Under the pieces are notes generated by a model, which was given only the letters and a program-made list of their open reading frames with translations, searched no databases and was not told where the DNA came from. Both the position numbers and the translations under genes were made by a program. A stretch of DNA of 15,262 bases from Clostridia bacterium (GTDB lineage: Bacteria; Bacillota; Clostridia; Oscillospirales; Acutalibacteraceae), in contig JAFSBS010000138.1 in assembly GCA_017437165.1 (NCBI GenBank), forward strand, positions 1 to 15,262, read 5' to 3'. This document shows positions 4,460 through 15,262 of the stretch, in pieces. The number at the start of each line of letters is the position of its first letter. Position 1 is the first letter of the stretch.

Positions 4460-6091
4460 ATGACAATAACTTTCTTTGGTGCTGCCCATGAAGTTACAGG
4501 TAGCTGTACTTTAATTAAGGCGAATGGTAAAAATATCATAGTTGATTATGGTATGGAGCAGGGTAAAGATATTTTTGAAAATCAGGAATTATCCGTTCCC
4601 GCTATTGATATTGACTATGTTTTACTTACTCACGCTCACATTGACCACTCGGGGTTAATACCTCTGCTTTATGCACACGGTTTCAATGGCAGAGTTTATG
4701 CTACTGAATCAACAACACGACTTTGTGAAATAATGCTTCGTGACTCTGCTCACATTCAGGAATTTGAAGCAGAGTGGCGTAACAGAAAAGCGAAGCGTTC
4801 AGGTGCAGAAAAATATGAACCTCTTTACACGATTGATGATGCAGTGGGTTCTATGAAACTTTTCAGACCTTGCCCTTATAATACTGTTGTTACGGTAGAT
4901 AAAGGTTTAGAAATACGCTTTACAGATGCAGGTCATCTTTTAGGTTCTGCAAGTATTGAAGTGTGGGTTACTGAAGATAAAGACACCGAAAAGTTAGTGT
5001 TCTCGGGTGATATCGGAAATCTCGAACAACCACTCTTAAGAGACCCTACTTATTTAACCGACGCTGACTATGTAATTATGGAGTCAACTTACGGTAACCG
5101 TAGTCACGGTGACAGACCTAATTATATAGGTGACTTGGTTAATGTTATTCAGCGTACATTTGACCGTGGCGGTAACCTTGTTATCCCTTCGTTTGCAGTC
5201 GGCAGAACCCAGGAACTTCTCTACTTTATAAGAGAAATTAAAGAGCAGAATTTAATTAAAGGTTATAATAATTTCAGAGTGTATGTCGATAGTCCTCTTG
5301 CTGTTGAAGCAACAAACATTTTCTCTGACAGAAGTTCGAGACAATGTTTTGACGAAGAAACTTTAGCACTTTTAGATTCGGGTATTAACCCCATAAGTTT
5401 CCCGGGACTTGAGCTTTCAATTACAACAGATGATTCTAAGGCAATTAACTTTGATAAATCGCCAAAAGTTATAATTTCTGCAAGTGGTATGTGTGAAGCC
5501 GGTCGTATCCGTCACCATTTAAAATACAATTTATGGAGAGAAGATTCAACAATTCTTTTTGTTGGTTATCAGGCAGAGGGGACTTTAGGTCGTACACTCG
5601 TAAATGGTGCAGATACAGTTACACTATTTGGCGAAGAAATTCAGGTGAATGCAGAAATTGCAGTGCTTGATGCAATAAGTGGTCACGCCGATAACGAAGG
5701 ACTTATGAAGTGGATTGGTTCATTCGAGCAACCACCTAAAAAAGTGTTCGTTATTCACGGTAACGAAGAAGCGTGTGAAACACTTACTGCAAGAATAAAT
5801 GAAGAATTACACTTCTCTGCAACTGCACCATTCAGTGGTGATTGTTGGGATATTGTTACAGGCGTATGCCTTGTCAAGAATGATGGTGTAAGAGTTAAAC
5901 CAAAAGTTCCACAATCAGAATATGGTTCCGGCAGACTTCAGGGTAAACGAATAACTCCTGCATTCAAACGTCTTATGACTGCTGTACAACAACTCGAAAG
6001 AGTTGCCGAAAATAATGTAGAAGGTGCAAACAAAGACCTTGCTAAATTCACAGACCAGATTCTCGAACTTTGCAGAAAGTGGAACAGGTAA
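4460..6091 (+). CDS. Metallo-beta-lactamase/beta-CASP/RMMBL protein, CPSF73-like RNase (543 aa)
   Basis: A likely zinc-dependent cytoplasmic ribonuclease of the YSH1/CPSF73-like group (COG1236 type), acting on RNA phosphodiesters. Metal motifs are complete: THAHIDH (57-63), DAGHLLGSAS (157-165, His159), FSGDIGN (181-187, Asp184). The beta-CASP region follows: VIMESTYGNR (205-214), IPSFAVGRTQELL (242-254), VYVDSPLA (274-281), SASGMCEAGRIRHHL (340-354) and the RMMBL motif SGHADNEGL (407-415, His409). The last 100 residues are basic and of unknown role. It lacks the typical RNase J layout, so CPSF-like is preferred. ATG is 10 bases after AAGGAG. It stands alone with its own promoter. The fold is certain; nuclease activity and substrate are inferred. 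Confidence 0.93.
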   Translation: MTITFFGAAHEVTGSCTLIKANGKNIIVDYGMEQGKDIFENQELSVPAIDIDYVLLTHAHIDHSGLIPLLYAHGFNGRVYATESTTRLCEIMLRDSAHIQEFEAEWRNRKAKRSGAEKYEPLYTIDDAVGSMKLFRPCPYNTVVTVDKGLEIRFTDAGHLLGSASIEVWVTEDKDTEKLVFSGDIGNLEQPLLRDPTYLTDADYVIMESTYGNRSHGDRPNYIGDLVNVIQRTFDRGGNLVIPSFAVGRTQELLYFIREIKEQNLIKGYNNFRVYVDSPLAVEATNIFSDRSSRQCFDEETLALLDSGINPISFPGLELSITTDDSKAINFDKSPKVIISASGMCEAGRIRHHLKYNLWREDSTILFVGYQAEGTLGRTLVNGADTVTLFGEEIQVNAEIAVLDAISGHADNEGLMKWIGSFEQPPKKVFVIHGNEEACETLTARINEELHFSATAPFSGDCWDIVTGVCLVKNDGVRVKPKVPQSEYGSGRLQGKRITPAFKRLMTAVQQLERVAENNVEGANKDLAKFTDQILELCRKWNR

Positions 6092-6244: not shown

Positions 6245-6317
6245 ATTCTTATTAAATTATAATCAAGGCGAAGCCTTCCGAAATTTTTAATTATAAAAAT
6301 GAAAGGTGGTAATTAAA

Positions 6318-6662
6318 ATGCCATATATCAATTTAAAAACAACAGTAAATGTAACAGAGGAAAAAGCGGGAATCTTAAAGGCAAAATTCGGTAAAGCAAT
6401 TGAAAGTTTCCCGGGGAAGACTGAAGCCTGGCTTATGGTCGGTATCGAAGATAATCAGAAACTTTGGTTTAAAGGTGACAACAGCGAAGACAGTGCAATT
6501 GTTGATGTTGACCTTTTAGGTGGAGTATCAAAAGATGGTGCTCTTAAAATGACTTGTACTGTTTGTGATATTTTAGAAGATGTGTTAGGAATTTCTCCAA
6601 GCAGAGTATATGTTAAATATATGGGTTATGCTGATTGGGGTTGGAATAATACGAATTTTTAA
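6318..6662 (+). CDS. MIF-like tautomerase (114 aa)
   Basis: A member of the macrophage migration inhibitory factor branch of the tautomerase superfamily, small cytoplasmic trimers that enolise keto acids such as phenylpyruvate using an N-terminal proline. The start is ATG 6318 because it follows AAAGGTGG (6302-6309) by 8 bases and places the catalytic Pro directly after Met (MPYIN). A GTG at 6306 is in frame but would bury the proline and overlap the ribosome binding site. Lys34 sits where the MIF active-site lysine is expected, and the C-terminus ISPSRVYVKYMGYADWGWNN closely follows human MIF. The CXXC oxidoreductase motif of vertebrate MIF is absent (SEDS in its place). The native substrate is unknown. 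A possible -10 TATAAT at 6258-6263 has no good -35. Confidence 0.92.
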   Translation: MPYINLKTTVNVTEEKAGILKAKFGKAIESFPGKTEAWLMVGIEDNQKLWFKGDNSEDSAIVDVDLLGGVSKDGALKMTCTVCDILEDVLGISPSRVYVKYMGYADWGWNNTNF

Positions 6663-6889: not shown

Positions 6890-8074
6890 ATGAGTATAAG
6901 AGTTTTGATTATGAGAGTTTTAGCGGTTTTTTGTATTTTAGGGGCTGTAGGTTTACTGGTTTACGAATACATAGATACCGGCTCAATTGATTTGTCGGGT
7001 AATAAGCCTATAAAACTTGTAAGTATAGTATTTTCCGGAATAGTGTTATTTTACAAATCTTTTACGGTTCTTGATGTTGTCAAACAAAACAATTCAATTA
7101 TTGAAAAAGAGTTTTATAGTCTTACAAATGGTGTTTTTAAAGATGAAGATAAAAAAGCAAAAGTTATTTTTAAAAAGGGGTTTGTAAAATACTCGTTCGA
7201 TAAAAATGATAAAGCAGTAAAATTATTTAATAATGCTTTGAAATATACTGAAAATTACAAGGCACGAGCAGTTATTACTGCGATGATAGGCAAAATTGCA
7301 TTTGAGAAATATAATTACCCTGCTGCTGAAGATATGTTGAAAAAAGCATTGTCAATTGACAGAAGTTGCAGTAAGGCGTGGAGTTTTTATCTTGACTTAT
7401 CTATTGCACAAAAAGATTTCAAAAAAGCAGAAGCTATCGGTGAAGAAGCAATGATGTACTGCAAAGACGATGTTTTTATTTTTTCAAAGGTCGGAACAGG
7501 TTATATATTGTCAGGCAAATATGAAAAAGCACTTAAAGTGTTCAAAGATGCGAAACGAATTGAGCCTGATAATCCGGTTCACCATTCTAATTTAGCAGTA
7601 GCTTATGCGGGTATAGGTAACGAAAAAGAAGCTATGATTGCTCTTGAAGATGCAAAAATTTTAAATTATGATGACCCCGAATCAACGTTGGAAATGATGC
7701 AGAGTTTATTAAAAAAAGCAGAGTTAAGAAAAGTAAAATATACAGGAAAGTTTGAGTTGTCACTTGATGGTTGCGAAAATATAAGCGATTGCACAGTCGA
7801 AGATGTAACGGAAAGTTTAAGGGGACTCTGGGACGGTGAATATGAATTTGTTATATTAACACCACCAGAAGAAATTGGGGACGTTTTATTTATACAAGTA
7901 ACAACTGATAGTGATAATAAAGCGATAGTTCAAATGAGTGTCGGTTCTAATGGTAGTGGCGTACTTTATGAAAAATATTGTTCTTTTGAAGAAGCAGAAA
8001 CTATTTTCATTAACTTTATAAAAGATAGAAGAACACCGAATACAATCACATTTAAACAAGTAGAATTTCTTTAA
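6890..8074 (+). CDS. Membrane-anchored tetratricopeptide-repeat protein (394 aa)
   Basis: Two N-terminal membrane segments (about residues 7-26 and 42-60) are followed by a soluble part with roughly five TPR-like helix pairs (about 91-122, 125-158, 162-192, 196-227, 230-262; for example GKYEKALKVFKDAKRIEPDNP, NPVHHSNLAVAYAGIGNEKEA). A distinct C-terminal domain of about 110 residues (285-394) is not recognised. With an even number of membrane passes and lysine-rich TPRs, the soluble part probably faces the cytoplasm as a protein-interaction platform. Start: GGAGGG (6879-6884) precedes ATG 6890. It is transcribed alone from the palindrome-bearing promoter. Partner and process are unknown. Confidence 0.85.
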   Translation: MSIRVLIMRVLAVFCILGAVGLLVYEYIDTGSIDLSGNKPIKLVSIVFSGIVLFYKSFTVLDVVKQNNSIIEKEFYSLTNGVFKDEDKKAKVIFKKGFVKYSFDKNDKAVKLFNNALKYTENYKARAVITAMIGKIAFEKYNYPAAEDMLKKALSIDRSCSKAWSFYLDLSIAQKDFKKAEAIGEEAMMYCKDDVFIFSKVGTGYILSGKYEKALKVFKDAKRIEPDNPVHHSNLAVAYAGIGNEKEAMIALEDAKILNYDDPESTLEMMQSLLKKAELRKVKYTGKFELSLDGCENISDCTVEDVTESLRGLWDGEYEFVILTPPEEIGDVLFIQVTTDSDNKAIVQMSVGSNGSGVLYEKYCSFEEAETIFINFIKDRRTPNTITFKQVEFL

Positions 8075-8909: not shown

Positions 8910-9189
8910 TTAAATGAATATCACAAATAAAAGCGATGACGAAGACGGTTGAAAATGACTGTTTCCAGAGAGTCGGCGGTTGCTGTGAGCCGATAACATA
9001 ATTTTCCTTGAACCTATCACTTCTGAGCTGAAGGGCTGAAAGTAACAGTAAGTTTCTTCCGAAAGAACTGCAGCGTTAGTGCAGAGGGGTTGTTTGACCT
9101 TAAAGGTGGCAATATTTTATTATTGCAATTTGAGTGGTACCGCGGAAAAGTTTTCCGTCTCAAAGTTTTTACTTTGAGACGGTTTTTTT
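8910..9189 (+). promoter_or_regulatory. T-box leader, predicted isoleucine-specific (specifier AUC)
   Basis: A tRNA-sensing leader: uncharged tRNA binds Stem I by its anticodon and the T-box by its CCA end, which favours antitermination. The T-box core AATTTGAGTGGTACCGCGG lies at 9127-9145. In Stem I, AGC (8932-8934) pairs with GCT (9027-9029); a K-turn (GATGA against TGA) follows; GAAG (8941-8944) pairs with CTTC (9020-9023); and GGTT (8947-8950) pairs with AACC (9011-9014). This leaves TATCA (9015-9019) as the specifier loop. The AGAGA bulge (8967-8971) and GCTGTGA distal loop are present. The codon followed by the usual purine is ATC (9016-9018), isoleucine. TAT or TCA in other registers are less likely. 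T-box identity is certain, the specifier fairly so. Confidence 0.9.
9155..9189 (+). terminator. T-box-regulated terminator, first synthetase
   Basis: Perfect 12-base stem CCGTCTCAAAGT (9155-9166) with 9171-9182, TTTT loop, then seven T. It begins ten bases after the T-box core, as expected for the switchable terminator. Confidence 0.92.
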
Positions 9190-9237
9190 ATTTGTGTGTT
9201 TCTTTTAAAAATTTTAATTTCGAGAGGAATGATTGTA

Positions 9238-11508
9238 ATGGCAGACAGTAAAGTAACAAAAAAGTTAGCAGAGGTTGCTGAACGAATTGAGGAGTTACGC
9301 GCAATTTACGGTTTTTCAGAAGAAGAAATGGCACAAAAAGCAGAAGTAACATTAGAGGATTATGTATCTTTTGTTAAAGGTGAGGATGATTTACCTTTCT
9401 CATTCGTTCATAAATGTGCTCTTGCATTCGGTGTTGAAATGACAGACCTTTTAGAAGGTCAGAGCGCAAAACTTTCTTCTTACACAGTAACCCGCCGTGG
9501 GAATGGTAAAGTTACTGCAAATGAAGACGGTAAATTGATTCAGAATTTAGCACCTCGTTTCAAACAAAAACTTGCTAATCCATACTGGGTAAATTACCAG
9601 TATTCAAGCGAACTTCAATCAAAAGAAATTGAAGTAAGCACACACGCTGGTCACGAATTTGACCTCGTTATAAAAGGTTCTTTAAAAGTTCGTGTTGGTG
9701 ATAATTACGAGATTTTAAGAGAAGGCGACAGTATTTATTATAAAAGTTCAATTCCTCACGGTATGATTGCAGTTGATGGTGAAGACTGTACATTCCTTGC
9801 TATGGTTATGAATGATGAAGAAGAAACTGCAGAATTCGTTTCTGAAAATCAGGATAAAACCAAACAGATTGAAAGACCACTCGTAAGTGATAAGTTTGTA
9901 AAAACTTTCCTTAATGAAGATGGTGTTTGTGACAAAATTGAATTTTATAATGAAGATAAATTCAACTTCGCTTTTGATATAGTTGATGAAATCGGTAGAA
10001 AATCACCCGATAAACTTGCTATGCTTCATATCTCTGATGATATGACAGAAAGAAGATTTACTTTCAAGGATATGAAAGAAATGTCTTCACAAGCAGCTAA
10101 CTACTTTAAATCTTTAGGTATAAAAAAAGGCGACAGAGTTCTTTTGGTGCTTAAAAGGAACTATCAGTTCTGGGTTGCTATTTTAGCTCTTCACAAATTA
10201 GGTGCAGTTGCAATTCCTGCAACTAATCAACTTGTTGTTCACGATTATGAATATCGCTTCCAGGCTGCGGGTGTTACTGCAATTGTTGCTACTGCAGACG
10301 GAAAAGTTACAGAAACAGTTGACGAAGCACAAAAGACCTGCCCTGATTTAAAAGTTAAAATTGTTGCAAATGGTGCTAAAGACGGTTGGCATAATTTTGA
10401 CGAGGAGTTCCCACTCTTCTCACGCAGATTTGTACGCGATGAAGAAACTGCTTGCGGTAATGACCCGCTTATAATGTTCTTTACATCAGGTACAACCGGT
10501 TACCCTAAAATTGCGGTTCATAGTCATAAATATCCACTTGGTCACTATATTACTGCAAAACATTGGCATAATGTTTATCGTGATGGTATTCACTTCACAA
10601 TTTCCGAAACAGGCTGGGGTAAAGCGCTCTGGGGTAAACTTTATGGTCAATGGCTCTGTGAGGGTGCAGTGTTCACTTACGACTTCGAGCGTTTTGATGC
10701 GGCAAAAATTCTCCCGATGTTCGCAAAGTATAATATAACAACATTCTGCGCACCACCTACAATGTACAGAATGTTAATAAAACAAGATATTTCACAATAT
10801 GATTTATCTTCAATAAAACACGCTACAACTGCGGGTGAAGCACTTAATCCGGAAGTGTTTAAGCAATTTAAAAAGGCAACAGGTCTTAAAATTTACGAAG
10901 GTTTCGGTCAGACTGAGACAACTCTTTCTATTGCAAATCTTGATGGTTCCAAAATCAAAATCGGTGCTATGGGTAAACCATCACCACTTTATGATATCGA
11001 TTTGGTTGACCCTGACGGCAAACCGGTGCCGGATGGTGAAACAGGCGAGATTGTTGTTCATACAGAAAATGGCGCGCCTTGTGGTCTTTTCTTGGGTTAC
11101 TACAACGACGAAGAAAGAACAAAAGAAGTATGGCACGATGGTCTTTATCACACAGGTGATACCGCTTGGAGAGATGAAGATGGTTACCTCTGGTATGTCG
11201 GTCGTGTTGATGATGTTATCAAATCATCAGGTTACAGAATAGGACCATTTGAAATTGAAAATGTTATTATGGAACTTCCGTATGTTCTTGAGTGTGGTGT
11301 TTCTGCTGCTCCTGACGAAGTTCGTGGTCAGGTTGTTAAAGCAAGTATTGTTTTAACAAAAGGTACAGAAGGTACAGAAGAACTCAAAAAGGAAATTCAG
11401 GATTACGTTAAAAAGAATACAGCACCTTATAAATATCCGAGAATTGTTGTATTCCGTGACGAATTACCAAAGACAATCAGCGGTAAAATCATAAGAAATA
11501 AACTTTAA
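9238..11508 (+). CDS. XRE-HTH/cupin/AMP-forming acyl-CoA synthetase fusion, under Ile T-box (756 aa)
   Basis: Three modules in one chain: XRE-type helix-turn-helix (about 11-73), cupin (about 131-191, THAGHEFDLVIKG and GDSIYYKSSIPHGM) and a full ANL ligase (about 240-756). Ligase motifs: FFTSGTTGYPK (414-424, phosphate loop), EGFGQTE (554-560), YHTGD (637-641), GRVDDVIKSSGYRIGPFEIE hinge (655-674) and catalytic Lys750 in KTISGKIIR. It converts a carboxylic acid, ATP and CoA to acyl-CoA, AMP and PPi. The TISETGWGKALWGKLYGQW segment resembles ACSM-type medium/branched-chain synthetases. The Ile T-box suggests 2-methylbutyrate as substrate (inference). Start at ATG 9238, 10 bases after GAGAGG; earlier in-frame starts at 9196 and 9229 lack usable spacing. 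The HTH suggests DNA binding with the cupin as sensor. Paralog of the next gene. Confidence 0.92.
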   Translation: MADSKVTKKLAEVAERIEELRAIYGFSEEEMAQKAEVTLEDYVSFVKGEDDLPFSFVHKCALAFGVEMTDLLEGQSAKLSSYTVTRRGNGKVTANEDGKLIQNLAPRFKQKLANPYWVNYQYSSELQSKEIEVSTHAGHEFDLVIKGSLKVRVGDNYEILREGDSIYYKSSIPHGMIAVDGEDCTFLAMVMNDEEETAEFVSENQDKTKQIERPLVSDKFVKTFLNEDGVCDKIEFYNEDKFNFAFDIVDEIGRKSPDKLAMLHISDDMTERRFTFKDMKEMSSQAANYFKSLGIKKGDRVLLVLKRNYQFWVAILALHKLGAVAIPATNQLVVHDYEYRFQAAGVTAIVATADGKVTETVDEAQKTCPDLKVKIVANGAKDGWHNFDEEFPLFSRRFVRDEETACGNDPLIMFFTSGTTGYPKIAVHSHKYPLGHYITAKHWHNVYRDGIHFTISETGWGKALWGKLYGQWLCEGAVFTYDFERFDAAKILPMFAKYNITTFCAPPTMYRMLIKQDISQYDLSSIKHATTAGEALNPEVFKQFKKATGLKIYEGFGQTETTLSIANLDGSKIKIGAMGKPSPLYDIDLVDPDGKPVPDGETGEIVVHTENGAPCGLFLGYYNDEERTKEVWHDGLYHTGDTAWRDEDGYLWYVGRVDDVIKSSGYRIGPFEIENVIMELPYVLECGVSAAPDEVRGQVVKASIVLTKGTEGTEELKKEIQDYVKKNTAPYKYPRIVVFRDELPKTISGKIIRNKL

Positions 11509-11570
11509 TTCTTTATTGCAATATTTACAAATTTTAACAACTGAATTTATAAAAAATTCCAATTATTTTC

Positions 11571-11599
11571 TTGACAAATTATAAGAGATGTGGTATGGT
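11571..11599 (+). promoter_or_regulatory. Promoter of the second T-box/synthetase/VOR unit
   Basis: TTGACA (11571-11576), 17-base spacer ending in TGG (extended -10), TATGGT (11594-11599); start near 11606. No terminator is evident between the first synthetase stop and this promoter, so read-through from the upstream unit is possible. Confidence 0.75.
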
Positions 11600-11605
11600 A
11601 TTATA

Positions 11606-11887
11606 CGTTCAAAGGCATTGAAGAAAAGGGGTTATAAATTCTTCCCTTGCAGAGAAGTGACGGGTGGTGCAAGTCACAGGTGAAAGTTTATAACTTGTAG
11701 TTTCTGAGCCGGGAGAAAGAAAAGCAGATGCTTAGTAGAATCTCTCCGTGATTGCTGCGTAAATGCATAGGAGTTGATAGACTCCAAGAGTGGCAGGTTT
11801 TCTGCAATTTGAGTGGTACCGCGGGTATTATAAATTGTTTATAACGCTCGTCTCAAAGATCATATCTTTGGGGCGGGTTATTTTTTT
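11606..11887 (+). promoter_or_regulatory. T-box leader, predicted valine-specific (specifier GUA)
   Basis: The T-box core AATTTGAGTGGTACCGCGG at 11806-11824 is identical to the first leader. Stem I: GGC (11614-11616) with GCC (11708-11710), K-turn ATTGA against TGA (11705-11707), GAAA (11623-11626) with TTTC (11701-11704), and an upper stem GTTATAAA (11631-11638) with TTTATAAC (11687-11694). The specifier loop 3' side reads TTGTAG (11695-11700); aligned on the first leader the codon followed by a purine is GTA (11697-11699), valine. The AGAGA bulge (11651-11655 region) and a GGTG-type distal loop are present. T-box certain, specifier fairly confident. Confidence 0.9.
11847..11887 (+). terminator. 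T-box-regulated terminator, second synthetase
   Basis: A 14-pair stem joins 11847-11860 (CTCGTCTCAAAGAT side) to 11864-11877 with a few G-T pairs, CAT loop, then TTATTTTTTT. It is related in sequence to the first terminator (GTCTCAAAG core), supporting duplication of the whole leader-gene unit. Confidence 0.88.
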
Positions 11888-11929
11888 AAAAGTAACCCCG
11901 CTCTGAAAGAATAATCGGAGGAACTAAAA

Positions 11930-14236
11930 ATGGAACAAATTACAGCACTTGATTTTAAAATCAAGGAAATGGCTGCAAGAATCAGAGAACTCAGAGAAAT
12001 TCAAAATCTCACAACTGCACAAATGGCTGAAAAAACAGGTGTTAGTGAAGCGGAGTACATTGAGTGCGAAAATGGTAATAAAGACTTAAACTTTGCTTTT
12101 ATTTATCGTTGTGCGCAAACTCTTAATGTTGACGTAACAAGCCTTATTGAGGGTCACACACCAAAACTCGTAAACTACGTTTATACAAAATCAGGTAAAG
12201 GGCAGAGAATCGAAAAAGCACATGGTATGACTTACTATAACCTTGCTTCTGCTTTTAAAAACAGAATTGCTGAACCTCTTTTTGTGCGTAGTACATACAG
12301 TGAAGAAAAACAGAATAAAGAAATTGAAGTTACTACTCACGCAGGTCAGGAACTTGATATTGTAATTGAGGGTAAATTAAAGGTTCAGGTTGGCGAACAC
12401 TACGAAATTCTTGAAGCTGGTGACAGTATTTATTACGACAGTTCAACACCTCACGGTATGATAGCTGTTGATGGTAAAGACTGTACTTTCTACGCTATTG
12501 TCCTTAACCCTACAGGCGAACCTATTCCTGAACTTGAATATGCAAAAGCAAAGGCAAAAGCAAAAGCGCTTGACAGTAAAAAGACAATAGAAAATGATAC
12601 AAAAGACCGTATATATCATAAATATATTGATATTGAAAAGAATGAAAACGGTACTCCTACAAAAATTTCTTTCAAGAATACTGATAAATTCAACTTTGCA
12701 TTTGATTTAGTTGATGATTTAGCTGATAAAGAACCAACTAAACTTGCAATGCTTCATATTGATAAAAATAAAGTTGAGAGAAGATTTACTTTTAAAGATA
12801 TTAAAAAGGCGTCTTCACAAGCGGCAAACTATTTTGCTTCTTTAGGTATTAAAAAAGGCGACAGAGTTATGCTCGTGTTAAAACGTCATTATCAATTCTG
12901 GTTTGCAATGATAGGACTTAACAAATTAGGCGCAATTGCAATTCCTGCACCTAACCAGTTACAAGAACACGACTTTGAGTACAGATTCCAGTCAGCCGGT
13001 ATCAAAGCGATTGTATGTACAGGCGATGGAGATACTGCTCATCAGGTAGATTTAGCAGCACAAACTTCACCGTCATTAGAAATTAAAATTATGGTTAATG
13101 GTGAGAGAGACGGCTGGAGAAATTATGACGAAGAAAGCGCTCGTTTCAGTTCTCATTTTGAAAGAACGGAAGAGTCACCTTGCGGTGATGATTTAATGCT
13201 TATGTTCTTTACATCAGGAACATCAGGTTATCCGAAAACCGCAATGCACAGTCATAAATATCCTTTAGGTCATTTCCATACTGCAAAGTTCTGGCACAAT
13301 GTTGACCCTGACGGTCTTCACTTTACAATTTCAGATACCGGTTGGGCAAAATCTATGTGGGGTAAACTTTACGGACAATGGCTTTGTGAAGCACCTACAT
13401 TTGTTTATGACTTTGACAGATTTGATGCAGCGGACATTTTACCAATGTTTGCAAAATATAAAATCACAACATTCTGTGCGCCACCTACAATGCTTCGTAT
13501 GATGGTAAAACAGGATATTTCAAAATACGATTTCTCATCAGTTCAGCACATGACAACTGCCGGTGAAGCACTTAACCCTGAAGTTTATCGTCAGTTTGAA
13601 ACAGCAACAGGTCTTCAGATTTTAGAAGGTTTCGGTCAGACAGAAAGCACAATGATTATAGGTAATATGACAGGTGCTTCTCACAAAATAGGTTCAATGG
13701 GTAAACCTGCACCGATTTACGATGTTAAACTTGTTGACGCAGATGGTAACGAAGTTAATGTTGGTGAAAATGGTGAAATTGTTATCAATGTTAAAAATGG
13801 TGCGCCCTGTGGTCTTTTCAAAGGTTATTACAAAGATGAGGAGAAGACAAAAGAAGTATGGCACGATGGTTTCTATCACACAGGTGATGTTGCTTGGCGT
13901 GATGAAGACGGTTTCTATTGGTATGTTGGTCGTGTTGATGATGTTATCAAATCATCAGGTTACAGAATAGGACCATTTGAAATTGAAAGCGTTATTATGG
14001 AACTTCCTTACGTTTTAGAGTGTGGTGTTTCTGCTGCTCCTGACGAGGTTCGTGGTCAGGTTGTTAAGGCAAGTATTGTTCTTCTTCCCGGTACTGAAGG
14101 AACAGAAGAATTAAAGAAAGAAATTCAGCAGTATGTTAAAGAAAAAACTGCACCTTATAAATATCCACGAATCGTTGTATTCCGTGATGAATTACCAAAA
14201 ACAACAAGTGGTAAGATTATAAGAAACAAACTTTGA
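11930..14236 (+). CDS. XRE-HTH/cupin/AMP-forming acyl-CoA synthetase fusion, under Val T-box (768 aa)
   Basis: Paralog of the preceding synthetase with the same order: HTH (about 12-74), cupin (about 132-192, THAGQELDIVIEG, GDSIYYDSSTPHGM) and ANL ligase (about 250-768). Ligase motifs: FFTSGTSGYPK (426-436), EGFGQTE (566-572), YHTGD (649-653), hinge GRVDDVIKSSGYRIG (667-681), catalytic Lys762. Between cupin and ligase is an AKAKAKAKA linker (205-213) absent from the paralog. The pocket stretch TISDTGWAKSMWGKLYGQWLCEAPTFVYDF differs at several positions from the paralog, suggesting a different acyl group. The Val T-box and the downstream oxidoreductase point to isobutyrate (inference). GGAGGA (11917-11922) precedes ATG by 7 bases. 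The stop is directly followed by the P-loop gene, so they form an operon. Confidence 0.92.
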   Translation: MEQITALDFKIKEMAARIRELREIQNLTTAQMAEKTGVSEAEYIECENGNKDLNFAFIYRCAQTLNVDVTSLIEGHTPKLVNYVYTKSGKGQRIEKAHGMTYYNLASAFKNRIAEPLFVRSTYSEEKQNKEIEVTTHAGQELDIVIEGKLKVQVGEHYEILEAGDSIYYDSSTPHGMIAVDGKDCTFYAIVLNPTGEPIPELEYAKAKAKAKALDSKKTIENDTKDRIYHKYIDIEKNENGTPTKISFKNTDKFNFAFDLVDDLADKEPTKLAMLHIDKNKVERRFTFKDIKKASSQAANYFASLGIKKGDRVMLVLKRHYQFWFAMIGLNKLGAIAIPAPNQLQEHDFEYRFQSAGIKAIVCTGDGDTAHQVDLAAQTSPSLEIKIMVNGERDGWRNYDEESARFSSHFERTEESPCGDDLMLMFFTSGTSGYPKTAMHSHKYPLGHFHTAKFWHNVDPDGLHFTISDTGWAKSMWGKLYGQWLCEAPTFVYDFDRFDAADILPMFAKYKITTFCAPPTMLRMMVKQDISKYDFSSVQHMTTAGEALNPEVYRQFETATGLQILEGFGQTESTMIIGNMTGASHKIGSMGKPAPIYDVKLVDADGNEVNVGENGEIVINVKNGAPCGLFKGYYKDEEKTKEVWHDGFYHTGDVAWRDEDGFYWYVGRVDDVIKSSGYRIGPFEIESVIMELPYVLECGVSAAPDEVRGQVVKASIVLLPGTEGTEELKKEIQQYVKEKTAPYKYPRIVVFRDELPKTTSGKIIRNKL

Positions 14237-14246
14237 GGTGTTCAAT

Positions 14247-14909
14247 TTGGAAAATAAAAGAGTTACTCTTTTTGCAGGGCACTATGGTAGCGGTAAAACA
14301 AATATCGCAGTAAATTATGCCTTGCACCTTAAAGAAAAATATGAAAAAGTAGTTATTACTGACCTTGATATTGTTAATCCGTATTTCAGAACTGCCGACA
14401 GTTTAGATGAATTAACAAAGGCAGGAATAAAACTCATTTCTTCTGAATTTGCTAATTCAAATGTCGATTTACCGGCGCTCCCACAAGATGTTTACTCAAT
14501 TCTTGATGACAGAAGTGCAGTAGCGATACTTGATATTGGTGGCGATGACCGTGGTGCTTACGCACTCGGCAGATATGAAGCTGCAATAAGGGAAGAAAAT
14601 AATTACGAAATGTTGTTTGTTTTTAATATGTACAGACCTTTAACACCGGATGCTTCTAGTGCGTTTGAAGTTATGAAAGAAATTGAAACTGCGGGTAAAA
14701 TTAAATTTACCGCTATTGTAAATAATTCTAATTTAGGTGTTCTCACTACTAAAGATGATGTTATTGCTTCAGTTAAGAGTGCAGATGAGTTGTCTCATCT
14801 TTCAGGTTTACCAATAAAAATGACAACGGTAAGTGAAAATTTAGTAAATTCTTTCAATGGTGAAATAGATAACATTTTCCCATTGAAATTACAAAAAAAG
14901 ATAGTATAA
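14247..14909 (+). CDS. P-loop ATPase, ParA/MinD/CobQ-like (220 aa)
   Basis: Nucleotide-binding protein with Walker A GHYGSGKT (about residues 11-18), then VVITDLDIVNPYFRTAD (about 37-53) and a Walker B-like AILDIGGDD. The Lys of the deviant ParA/MinD Walker A (KGGxGK) is missing; it reads AGHYGSGKT. The start is set at TTG 14247 because GAGGTG (14235-14240), overlapping the upstream TGA, is 6 bases before it; an in-frame GTG at 14238 is inside that ribosome binding site and has none of its own. It lies between an acyl-CoA synthetase and the oxidoreductase genes in one operon, so a role in maturation, cluster delivery or activation of the ferredoxin-dependent enzyme is possible, but not shown. 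Cytoplasmic. Confidence 0.85.
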   Translation: MENKRVTLFAGHYGSGKTNIAVNYALHLKEKYEKVVITDLDIVNPYFRTADSLDELTKAGIKLISSEFANSNVDLPALPQDVYSILDDRSAVAILDIGGDDRGAYALGRYEAAIREENNYEMLFVFNMYRPLTPDASSAFEVMKEIETAGKIKFTAIVNNSNLGVLTTKDDVIASVKSADELSHLSGLPIKMTTVSENLVNSFNGEIDNIFPLKLQKKIV

Positions 14910-14951
14910 TATATCTGTTGATATTTATGTATGATTATTGGAGGTAAGATT

Positions 14952-15158
14952 ATGGCAAAAGTTACTTTCGCGGACAACGTTTGCAAAGGCTGTGGTCTTT
15001 GTGTAGGTGCTTGTCCTAAAAAAATCGTAGCACTTGATACTTCAAGACTTAACGCAAAGGGACATCACCCTGCACACGTTACAGATGAAAGCTTATGTAT
15101 TGGCTGTGCATTCTGTGCAACTATGTGCCCTGATTGTGTAATTACAGTAGAAAGATAA
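14952..15158 (+). CDS. 2x[4Fe-4S] ferredoxin subunit of 2-oxoacid:ferredoxin oxidoreductase (68 aa)
   Basis: Two classic cluster motifs, CKGCGLCVGACP (Cys11, 14, 17, 21) and CIGCAFCATMCP (Cys49, 52, 55, 59), in a 68-residue protein: the delta/ferredoxin-type subunit that passes electrons between the thiamine-diphosphate centre and external ferredoxin. GGAGGT (14940-14945) lies 6 bases before ATG 14952; an in-frame ATG at 14931 precedes that site and is rejected. It is followed 12 bases later by the alpha subunit gene, with its own AGGTGG. The two-cluster fold is certain and the oxidoreductase role follows from position. Confidence 0.93.
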   Translation: MAKVTFADNVCKGCGLCVGACPKKIVALDTSRLNAKGHHPAHVTDESLCIGCAFCATMCPDCVITVER

Positions 15159-15170
15159 GAGGTGGAAAAA

Positions 15171-15262
15171 ATGGGTGAAAAAGTTTTAATGAAAGGTAAC
15201 GAAGCTATTGCAGAAGCTGCAATAAGAGCAGGTTGTTTACATTACTTCGGTTATCCTATTAC
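15171..15262 (+). CDS. vorB: 2-oxoacid:ferredoxin oxidoreductase alpha subunit, VorB-like (5' end only)
   Basis: ATG 15171 follows AGGTGG (15160-15165) and opens MGEKVLMKGNEAIAEAAIRAG, then HYFGYPIT at the window edge. The KGNEAIAEAAIRAG...YFGYPIT start is typical of the alpha subunit (PorA/VorB/KorA family) of thiamine-diphosphate 2-oxoacid:ferredoxin oxidoreductases; the GYPIT segment is the start of the pyrimidine-binding domain. The enzyme interconverts a 2-oxoacid and its acyl-CoA plus CO2 using ferredoxin. Choice of VOR over KOR or POR rests on the N-terminal wording and on the Ile/Val T-boxes upstream (inference). The rest of the gene and the beta and gamma subunits should follow outside the window. 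Confidence 0.85.
   Translation, partial: MGEKVLMKGNEAIAEAAIRAGCLHYFGYPI

Follow-up and report, generated by a model that had tools for sequence, protein, structure and literature searches.

RESULTS AND DISCUSSION

Two T-box leaders and the genes behind them

The window analyzed here (the whole stretch of DNA, 15,262 nucleotides) comes from a Clostridia bacterium of the family Acutalibacteraceae (assembly GCA_017437165.1, contig JAFSBS010000138.1; contig C95 of the genome that we call G000, 81% complete), a member of a gut-associated, mostly uncultured group. It carries two T-box leaders, each followed by an acyl-CoA synthetase gene (ACS1 and ACS2), and the second unit continues into a P-loop ATPase, a ferredoxin-like subunit, and the start of a 2-oxoacid oxidoreductase (VOR). 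The features are as follows (HTH, helix-turn-helix):

8927–9190, + strand: T-box leader 1 (Ile), stem I to terminator; RF00230 match at 8927–9165, terminator hairpin and T run
9016–9018, + strand: specifier AUC (Ile) of leader 1; covariance-model alignment, register checked on the other T-boxes of the same genome
9238–11508, + strand: ACS1, HTH-cupin-acyl-CoA synthetase (predicted substrate 2-methylbutyrate); PF00501, PF13193, and PF07883 over cut-off; 3etc, E = 4e-190
11609–11886, + strand: T-box leader 2 (Val), stem I to terminator; RF00230 match at 11609–11858, terminator
11697–11699, + strand: specifier GUA (Val) of leader 2; conserved position, synonymous GUA, GUC, or GUG in relatives
11930–14236, + strand: ACS2, HTH-cupin-acyl-CoA synthetase (predicted substrate isobutyrate); HTH_19, Cupin_2, AMP-binding, and AMP-binding_C over cut-off; 3etc, E = 4.8e-184
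14238–14909, + strand: P-loop ATPase, upstream of VorABC in relatives; matches to ParA-type and other P-loop families below cut-off, conserved in the operon
14952–15158, + strand: 2x[4Fe-4S] ferredoxin-like (delta) oxidoreductase subunit; Fer4 families, OGOR_delta and PorD-like models below their cut-offs
15171–15262, + strand: start of a vorB-type 2-oxoacid oxidoreductase alpha subunit, truncated at the window boundary; NF005507, 42.8 bits on 30 amino acids

For ACS1, the open reading frame tool gave a GTG start at 9196, but the ATG at 9238 is likelier, judging the ribosome-binding site by eye. AGAGA, the GUGGUACCGCG antiterminator, and a terminator hairpin with a T run are present in both leaders. 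Leader 1 scored 114 bits against the RF00230 covariance model (gathering threshold 93), which places it within the family, and leader 2 scored 82.3 bits, below the threshold, with an E value of 1.6e-18 in a search of 371 bases; the homologous Val-side leaders of relatives exceeded the threshold at 8 of 20 loci. The specifiers stand in the contexts CCU-AUC-A-CUUCUGAGC (leader 1) and CUU-GUA-G-UUUCUGAGC (leader 2). These are the codons that a first-pass annotation, made from the letters of the window, had assigned to isoleucine and valine; both were recovered, the former by covariance-model alignment, and each leader is predicted to bind its cognate uncharged tRNA.

Our register rule picked the codon position solely from the ten bases 3' of the codon, and we applied it to the seven other T-boxes of G000. 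It returned the cognate codon in five of them (UUC/pheS, ACC/thrS, AUC/ileS, GCU/alaS, and UGG/trpB, with gene names read from the translations by eye) and CUC in a sixth, ahead of a LeuA-like gene; it failed at the seventh (L005), where the Rfam alignment shows GAA-UUC-A. Chance alignment of the specifiers can be rejected because the rule ignores the codon itself, because five of seven control leaders gave their cognate codon, and because the Val codons vary synonymously. The Ile and Val assignments therefore hold under a control taken from the same genome.

Two synthetases with an additional N-terminal part

Both ACS1 and ACS2 contain AMP-binding and AMP-binding_C domains, and for either protein the closest match among solved structures is 3etc (MacsMa, from Methanosarcina acetivorans), in agreement with their earlier description as paralogous ACSM-like acyl-CoA synthetases. 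That description had overlooked an N-terminal HTH and cupin part in both proteins; the 3etc matches start past it, at query residues 245 and 251, and the HTH match of ACS1 (PF12844) lies below the Pfam cut-off. The two proteins are perhaps enzymes that bind DNA too. The nearest NCBIfam model is MbcS (NF047394), with scores of 446 and 442 bits that fall short of its equivalog cut-off of 850. When aligned to 3etc, G569 (Gly replacing the pocket Trp of Acs) and W455 (the Trp of the KxW motif) are invariant across a 13-sequence alignment; the position of the Trp259 equivalent in the 3etc chain was assigned by eye. In six sampled family loci (L093 to L098), the counterpart of the HTH-cupin part (window positions 9238–9850 and 11930–12550) occurs as a separate match beside the synthetase.

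Genomes, loci, and counting rules

Relatives were sampled as 40 stretches from family genomes, 20 further stretches, and 80 loci from named records, 41 of which name a herbivore host in their titles. In this sample, the label ACS2 fell to 110 rows and ACS1 to 85. Removing short frames and proteins with identical last 400 residues left 177 proteins, from which a quick maximum-likelihood tree was built. The short frames were eleven rows of fewer than 650 residues from the estimated start, some through a misplaced start (L049, L067, L078, L088, L089, L090, L092, L100, L102, L111, and L168); among them, L088, L089, and L092 are distant ACS2-labelled proteins (50 to 55% identity) with AUC leaders and have no clade placement. 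L054 was labelled ACS2 by BLAST and was counted in the Ile clade, where the tree places it. The Ile specifier of L074 was set by hand to AUC (automatic read, TCA), and a low-scoring Val read at L158 was left unaccepted.

The survey of ilv and leu genes covered 150 family genomes and 14 control genomes. Carriers of the Val enzyme (n = 25) were hand-picked among the matches listed, 23 being full-length at at least 66% identity and 2 partial (G064 and G065).

Paralogue clades match their specifiers

The tree separated an Ile clade of 68 rows (SH-aLRT 99) from a Val clade of 97 rows (SH-aLRT 100), leaving 12 outgroup rows, L081 and L091 included. Every accepted specifier in the Ile clade was AUC (61 rows, with 7 unread), and every one in the Val clade was GUN (GUA 76, GUC 8, and GUG 1, with 12 unread); the outgroup rows gave AUC in 10 cases and were unread in 2. 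The raw labels, before deduplication, gave a similar picture: the ACS2-labelled rows read GTA in 81 cases, GTC in 8, GTG in 1 (plus 1 low-scoring), and ATC in 6, with no leader found in 10 and truncation in 3, while the ACS1-labelled rows read ATC in 75 and TCA in 1, with no leader found in 8 and truncation in 1. The comparison of specifiers across related genomes that the first-pass annotation had proposed thus yields two clades that split by codon as the paralogues do.

Thirteen positions differ between the clades with more than 85% constancy in each, two of them in the catalytic domain. One of these two lies in the GW-x-K motif and is Gly in 67 of 68 Ile-clade proteins and in all 12 outgroups, and Ala (Ala473 of ACS2) in 97 of 97 Val-clade proteins. 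Split-type relatives have Met in six of seven loci, and the seventh (L096) combines Gly with an AUC T-box. In HMMER alignments this position falls on the Val of GWVT in the acetyl-CoA synthetase 9g79, a residue (Val310 of the Salmonella enzyme) that we take to line the acetate pocket; 3etc has Gly there. Gly would suit a bulkier acid and Ala a smaller one, which is consistent with a split in substrates but stays short of proof because an alternate acyl pocket is reported for MacsMa (a title in the reference list of PMC10455477).

The classical branched-chain pathway appears to be missing in most sampled carriers

IlvC was found in 85 of the 150 family genomes and IlvD in 91 (84 over cut-off), and both in 14/14 controls. 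Neither gave a match in G000 or in its same-genus relative G057 (97% complete), and neither genome has an IlvB over cut-off (G057 has a 23-bit match only), so the absence of ilv genes that had been suggested as a check was indeed observed. IlvC occurs in 3 of the 25 carriers (G148, G133, and G056) versus 82 of the 125 other genomes (Fisher p = 7.7e-7), and in 3 of 19 carriers versus 69 of 95 others among genomes at least 90% complete (p = 5.2e-6), p values that draft gaps weaken and that overstate independence because the genomes are related drafts. The same three carriers are the only ones with IlvD over cut-off (versus 81 of 125 others), with IlvB over cut-off (controls, 14/14), and with LeuC and LeuB over cut-off; the LeuC and LeuB absences are weaker, because these models pass in only 7/14 and 9/14 controls and other LeuC or LeuB types may escape them. 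Among the 22 other carriers, 20 have a single LeuC-model match each, one a fragment (G000) and 19 in frames of 644 to 768 residues, which we read as aconitase. The joint absence pattern of the five genes (IlvC, IlvB, IlvD, LeuB, and LeuC) is a stronger point than the p values.

The operon continues into an oxidoreductase and an aminotransferase

From base 8001 onward, the window aligns to the G057 locus at 96% over 7.3 kb, and there the order is T-box, ACS1, T-box, ACS2, ATPase, ferredoxin, VorA, VorB, VorG, and IlvE (VorA, VorB, and VorG being our own labels for alpha, beta, and gamma). The claim that the second unit leads into a VorB-type oxidoreductase can be upheld through G057: the full-length G057 orthologue of the alpha subunit scores 544 bits against NF005507 and passes its subfamily cut-off of 399, whereas the window itself holds a 30-residue stub that remains below it at 42.8 bits. 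The comparison of gene order that had been suggested adds ilvE at the operon's end. In G000, ilvE sits at the start of contig C250, the first 214 bases of which correspond to the G057 vorG-ilvE junction at 97.7%. The branched-chain aminotransferase model (TIGR01123, equivalog cut-off 250) gives 426 bits for G000:C250 and 428 bits for G057:C25, and its cut-off is exceeded in 23 of the 25 carriers.

Downstream sequence of 6 kb or more is available for 63 Val-clade loci, of which 45 have VorABC and 40 have IlvE as well; of the 79 with at least 3.2 kb upstream, 53 have the Ile enzyme on that side. In G056, the VOR is unlinked from the synthetases (L199, G056:C6) and has an AUC (Ile) T-box of its own. 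At a cut of E = 1e-60, a VOR alpha is present in 87 of the 150 genomes, most matching genomes having one. Full-length proteins fall into identity groups of 71 to 100% (32 genomes), 59 to 66%, and, more distantly, 43 to 50%, with partial matches that do not sort cleanly (G029, 67%; G145, 68% and 83%; G111, 56%). The 71 to 100% type occurs in 22 of the 25 carriers; G000 has the stub only, and G037 and G064 have none. At eight sampled loci of the 59 to 66% type, the ATPase and VorABC are present and no ACS or IlvE was found nearby; in one of them (L191), a T-box motif with no specifier read lies 3 kb downstream. The identity split and the content of these loci fit a VOR dedicated to the operon, leaving its substrate unproven.

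A predicted tRNA-controlled route from branched acids to Ile and Val

We consider that the locus very probably serves to make isoleucine and valine by reductive carboxylation of 2-methylbutyrate and isobutyrate, respectively, under tRNA control. In this scheme, both acids would be taken up from the surroundings, and uncharged tRNA-Ile or tRNA-Val would bind its own T-box leader and let transcription proceed. ACS1, behind the Ile leader, would convert 2-methylbutyrate, and ACS2, behind the Val leader, isobutyrate to their CoA thioesters, which a shared ferredoxin-dependent VorABC working reductively would turn into 3-methyl-2-oxopentanoate and 2-oxoisovalerate; the IlvE of the operon would transaminate the former to isoleucine and the latter to valine. 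The leaders, their specifiers, the order of the genes, the match between paralogue and specifier, and the failure to find IlvC and, over cut-off, IlvB and IlvD in 22 of the 25 carriers are seen directly in the sequences. The substrate preferences of the two synthetases are predicted from sequence, the branched 2-oxoacid specificity of the VOR is suggested by genomic context, and the reductive direction of the flux is likewise presumed. T-boxes turn genes on when an amino acid is short, and therefore synthesis is favoured over catabolism.

Several observations weigh against this interpretation, in addition to the relatedness of the drafts, the hand-picking of the 25 carriers among the matches listed, and the limited reach of the LeuC and LeuB models mentioned above. 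Nineteen deduplicated clade rows have no accepted specifier: in 4 the upstream sequence is shorter than 250 bases, in 14 it is long enough but shows no motif, and in 1 the read is a low-scoring GTG. The three carriers with IlvC retain the whole ilv/leu set, sub-cut-off IlvD dehydratases occur in three further carriers (G004, G010, and G065), and sub-cut-off IlvB matches occur in 10 of the 22 remaining carriers, reaching 330 bits (G087). No VorABC adjoins the Val enzyme at 18 of the 63 loci with room. Finally, VOR specificity is unreadable from sequence, since the alpha subunit passes a subfamily model only and the beta and gamma subunits pass none.

Three alternatives were considered. (i) ACS1 and ACS2 could supply branched acyl-CoA primers for membrane branched-chain fatty acids, with the VOR and the T-boxes secondary. 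MbcS, the nearest NCBIfam model to both proteins, activates 2-methylbutyrate and isobutyrate selectively (PMC10026030), but its equivalog cut-off is missed, the predicted Ile- and Val-tRNA control and the linkage to VorABC and IlvE indicate amino acids, and IlvC, as well as IlvB and IlvD over cut-off, was not found in 22 of the 25 carriers. We regard this explanation as quite unlikely, and part of the acyl-CoA could go to lipids even so. (ii) The oxidoreductase may act on 2-oxoglutarate or on 2-oxoacids in general and simply be a neighbour of T-box-controlled synthetases with another role. This would agree with a beta subunit nearest to 2-oxoglutarate enzymes (PDB and NCBIfam) and with the single VorB-type alpha (E = 1e-60 or better) of most genomes that have a match; the G057 operon, however, ends in IlvE, the unlinked VOR of G056 has its own Ile T-box, and the operon-linked VOR is distinct from the 59 to 66% orthologues, making this alternative very unlikely. 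(iii) An oxidative use, in which acyl-CoA arises from VOR breakdown of branched 2-oxoacids and the synthetases work in reverse, appears very unlikely: VOR-type enzymes are known in general to be reversible and to work oxidatively in peptide fermenters, but induction by shortage is the wrong signal for catabolism, pyrophosphate hydrolysis pulls AMP-forming synthetases forward, and no de novo ilv genes turned up in 22 of the 25 carriers.

If the preferred route from branched acids to isoleucine and valine operates, T-box specifiers would serve as labels for predicting the substrates of ACS1 and ACS2, which are ambiguous without them; a single-residue difference beside the pocket motif would offer a testable basis for the substrate split. 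In the rumen, branched volatile fatty acids have long been recognized both as growth factors and as precursors of amino acids. Most of the carriers sampled, with ilv and leu genes missing, are predicted to rely on acids supplied by other microbes, a dependence that would matter for feeding isoacids to ruminants and for designing media for gut Clostridia not yet in culture.

Leucine and phenylalanine parallels

In relatives, a Leu T-box precedes a gene for a LeuA homologue (HMGL-like and LeuA_dimer domains), after which comes a fusion of a TIM barrel with an AMP-ligase (acyl-CoA ligase). The 37 Leu T-box rows (duplicates kept) read CUC in 17 cases and CUG in 3, with 6 misread and 11 without a leader or truncated; CTC is visible in three of the misread rows (L044, L047, and L062). 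Neither HxHND nor an N-terminal RDGxQ was found among 38 rows of these LeuA homologues (duplicates kept), L044 having RDGxQ at a place that is not N-terminal, while G148, G133, and G056 each have, within their ilv/leu cluster, a frame that we identified by eye as LeuA and that contains both motifs. In G000 itself, contig C245 (L204:1319–3081) carries a Leu T-box and a LeuA homologue that lacks RDGxQ and HxHND and keeps LeuA_dimer. The LeuA that has lost these catalytic motifs and keeps its leucine-binding domain is possibly a leucine sensor. The fusion is present in 22 of the 25 carriers, counted irrespective of its position behind a Leu T-box. The activation of isovalerate for leucine would be the simplest reading of this branch, more speculative than those for isoleucine and valine; isovalerate is described as a leucine precursor in rumen microbes and methanogens (PMC7356843, PMC10658910). 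Whether T-boxes for Ile, Val, and Leu, each with its own synthetase (for 2-methylbutyrate, isobutyrate, and isovalerate), together with one VOR and one IlvE have replaced the ilv and leu pathways in some gut Clostridia is in our view evenly balanced; if they have, all three branched-chain amino acids would depend on acids that other microbes excrete.

Another contig of G000 (C223; L209:2679–7601) carries an AMP-ligase, IorA- and IorB-like genes, a T-box, and a phenylacetate-CoA-ligase-like gene (names by eye). This T-box scores 107 bits, has the specifier UUC (Phe), and lies ahead of the ligase-like gene, an arrangement for which an analogous phenylacetate-to-phenylalanine route is possible. 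Among 20 ior loci (L209 to L228), a T-box motif occurs in two, L209 and L227 (G010), and none was found in the 14 kb seen at the ior locus of G057.

Other genes of the window

Positions 4460–6091 encode a metallo-beta-lactamase/beta-CASP RNase-type protein. Its best NCBIfam model is type VII CRISPR Cas14, an identity that we rejected at 405 bits against a cut-off of 800. A bacterial MIF-family protein is encoded at positions 6306–6662 (27.7 bits, cut-off 22).

Comparison with known systems

The locus is a real, conserved system with known chemistry (MetaCyc holds an entry for isoleucine from 2-methylbutanoate) and a matched T-box/synthetase control that we did not find described. The literature search listed no paper that connects T-boxes to acyl-CoA synthetases or to isobutyrate, although an earlier mention is possible, and none naming bacterial genes and their control for the use of branched volatile fatty acids as amino-acid precursors; a term search for acyl-CoA in the main text of two T-box surveys (PMC2494555, PMC3766115) was also negative. 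This agrees with the earlier remark that a T-box-matched synthetase pair is no standard described system.

The window leaders have stem I, specifier, antiterminator, and terminator in common with Ile and Val T-box riboswitches, but their target is an acyl-CoA synthetase and not a tRNA synthetase, a classical ilv gene, or a transporter, as is usual (PMC3766115 and general knowledge). MacsMa, which prefers 2-methylbutyrate and for which roles of the pocket Gly and Trp259 are described (PMC10455477), resembles the window proteins in the catalytic domain (E = 4.8e-184), in the Gly that replaces the Acs Trp, and in the KxW Trp; the window proteins add the HTH-cupin part, and at the GW-x-K position ACS2 carries Ala, unlike MacsMa and ACS1, which both carry Gly. 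MbcS of Staphylococcus aureus activates isobutyrate and 2-methylbutyrate, as predicted here (PMC10026030), but the window proteins score about half of its equivalog cut-off, and MbcS serves lipid synthesis in S. aureus. The closest physiological parallel is rumen reductive carboxylation, with old results on isobutyrate to valine and 2-methylbutyrate to isoleucine (PMC7356843, citing Allison and Peel 1971 and Robinson and Allison) and with rumen methanogens for which 2-methylbutyrate is given as a source of isoleucine and isovalerate of leucine (PMC10658910). The predicted chemistry, from acid to acyl-CoA, 2-oxoacid, and amino acid, is the same, whereas the system described here differs in its matched synthetase pair, its T-box control, and the combined lack of ilv and leu genes, in Clostridia known from metagenome-assembled genomes.

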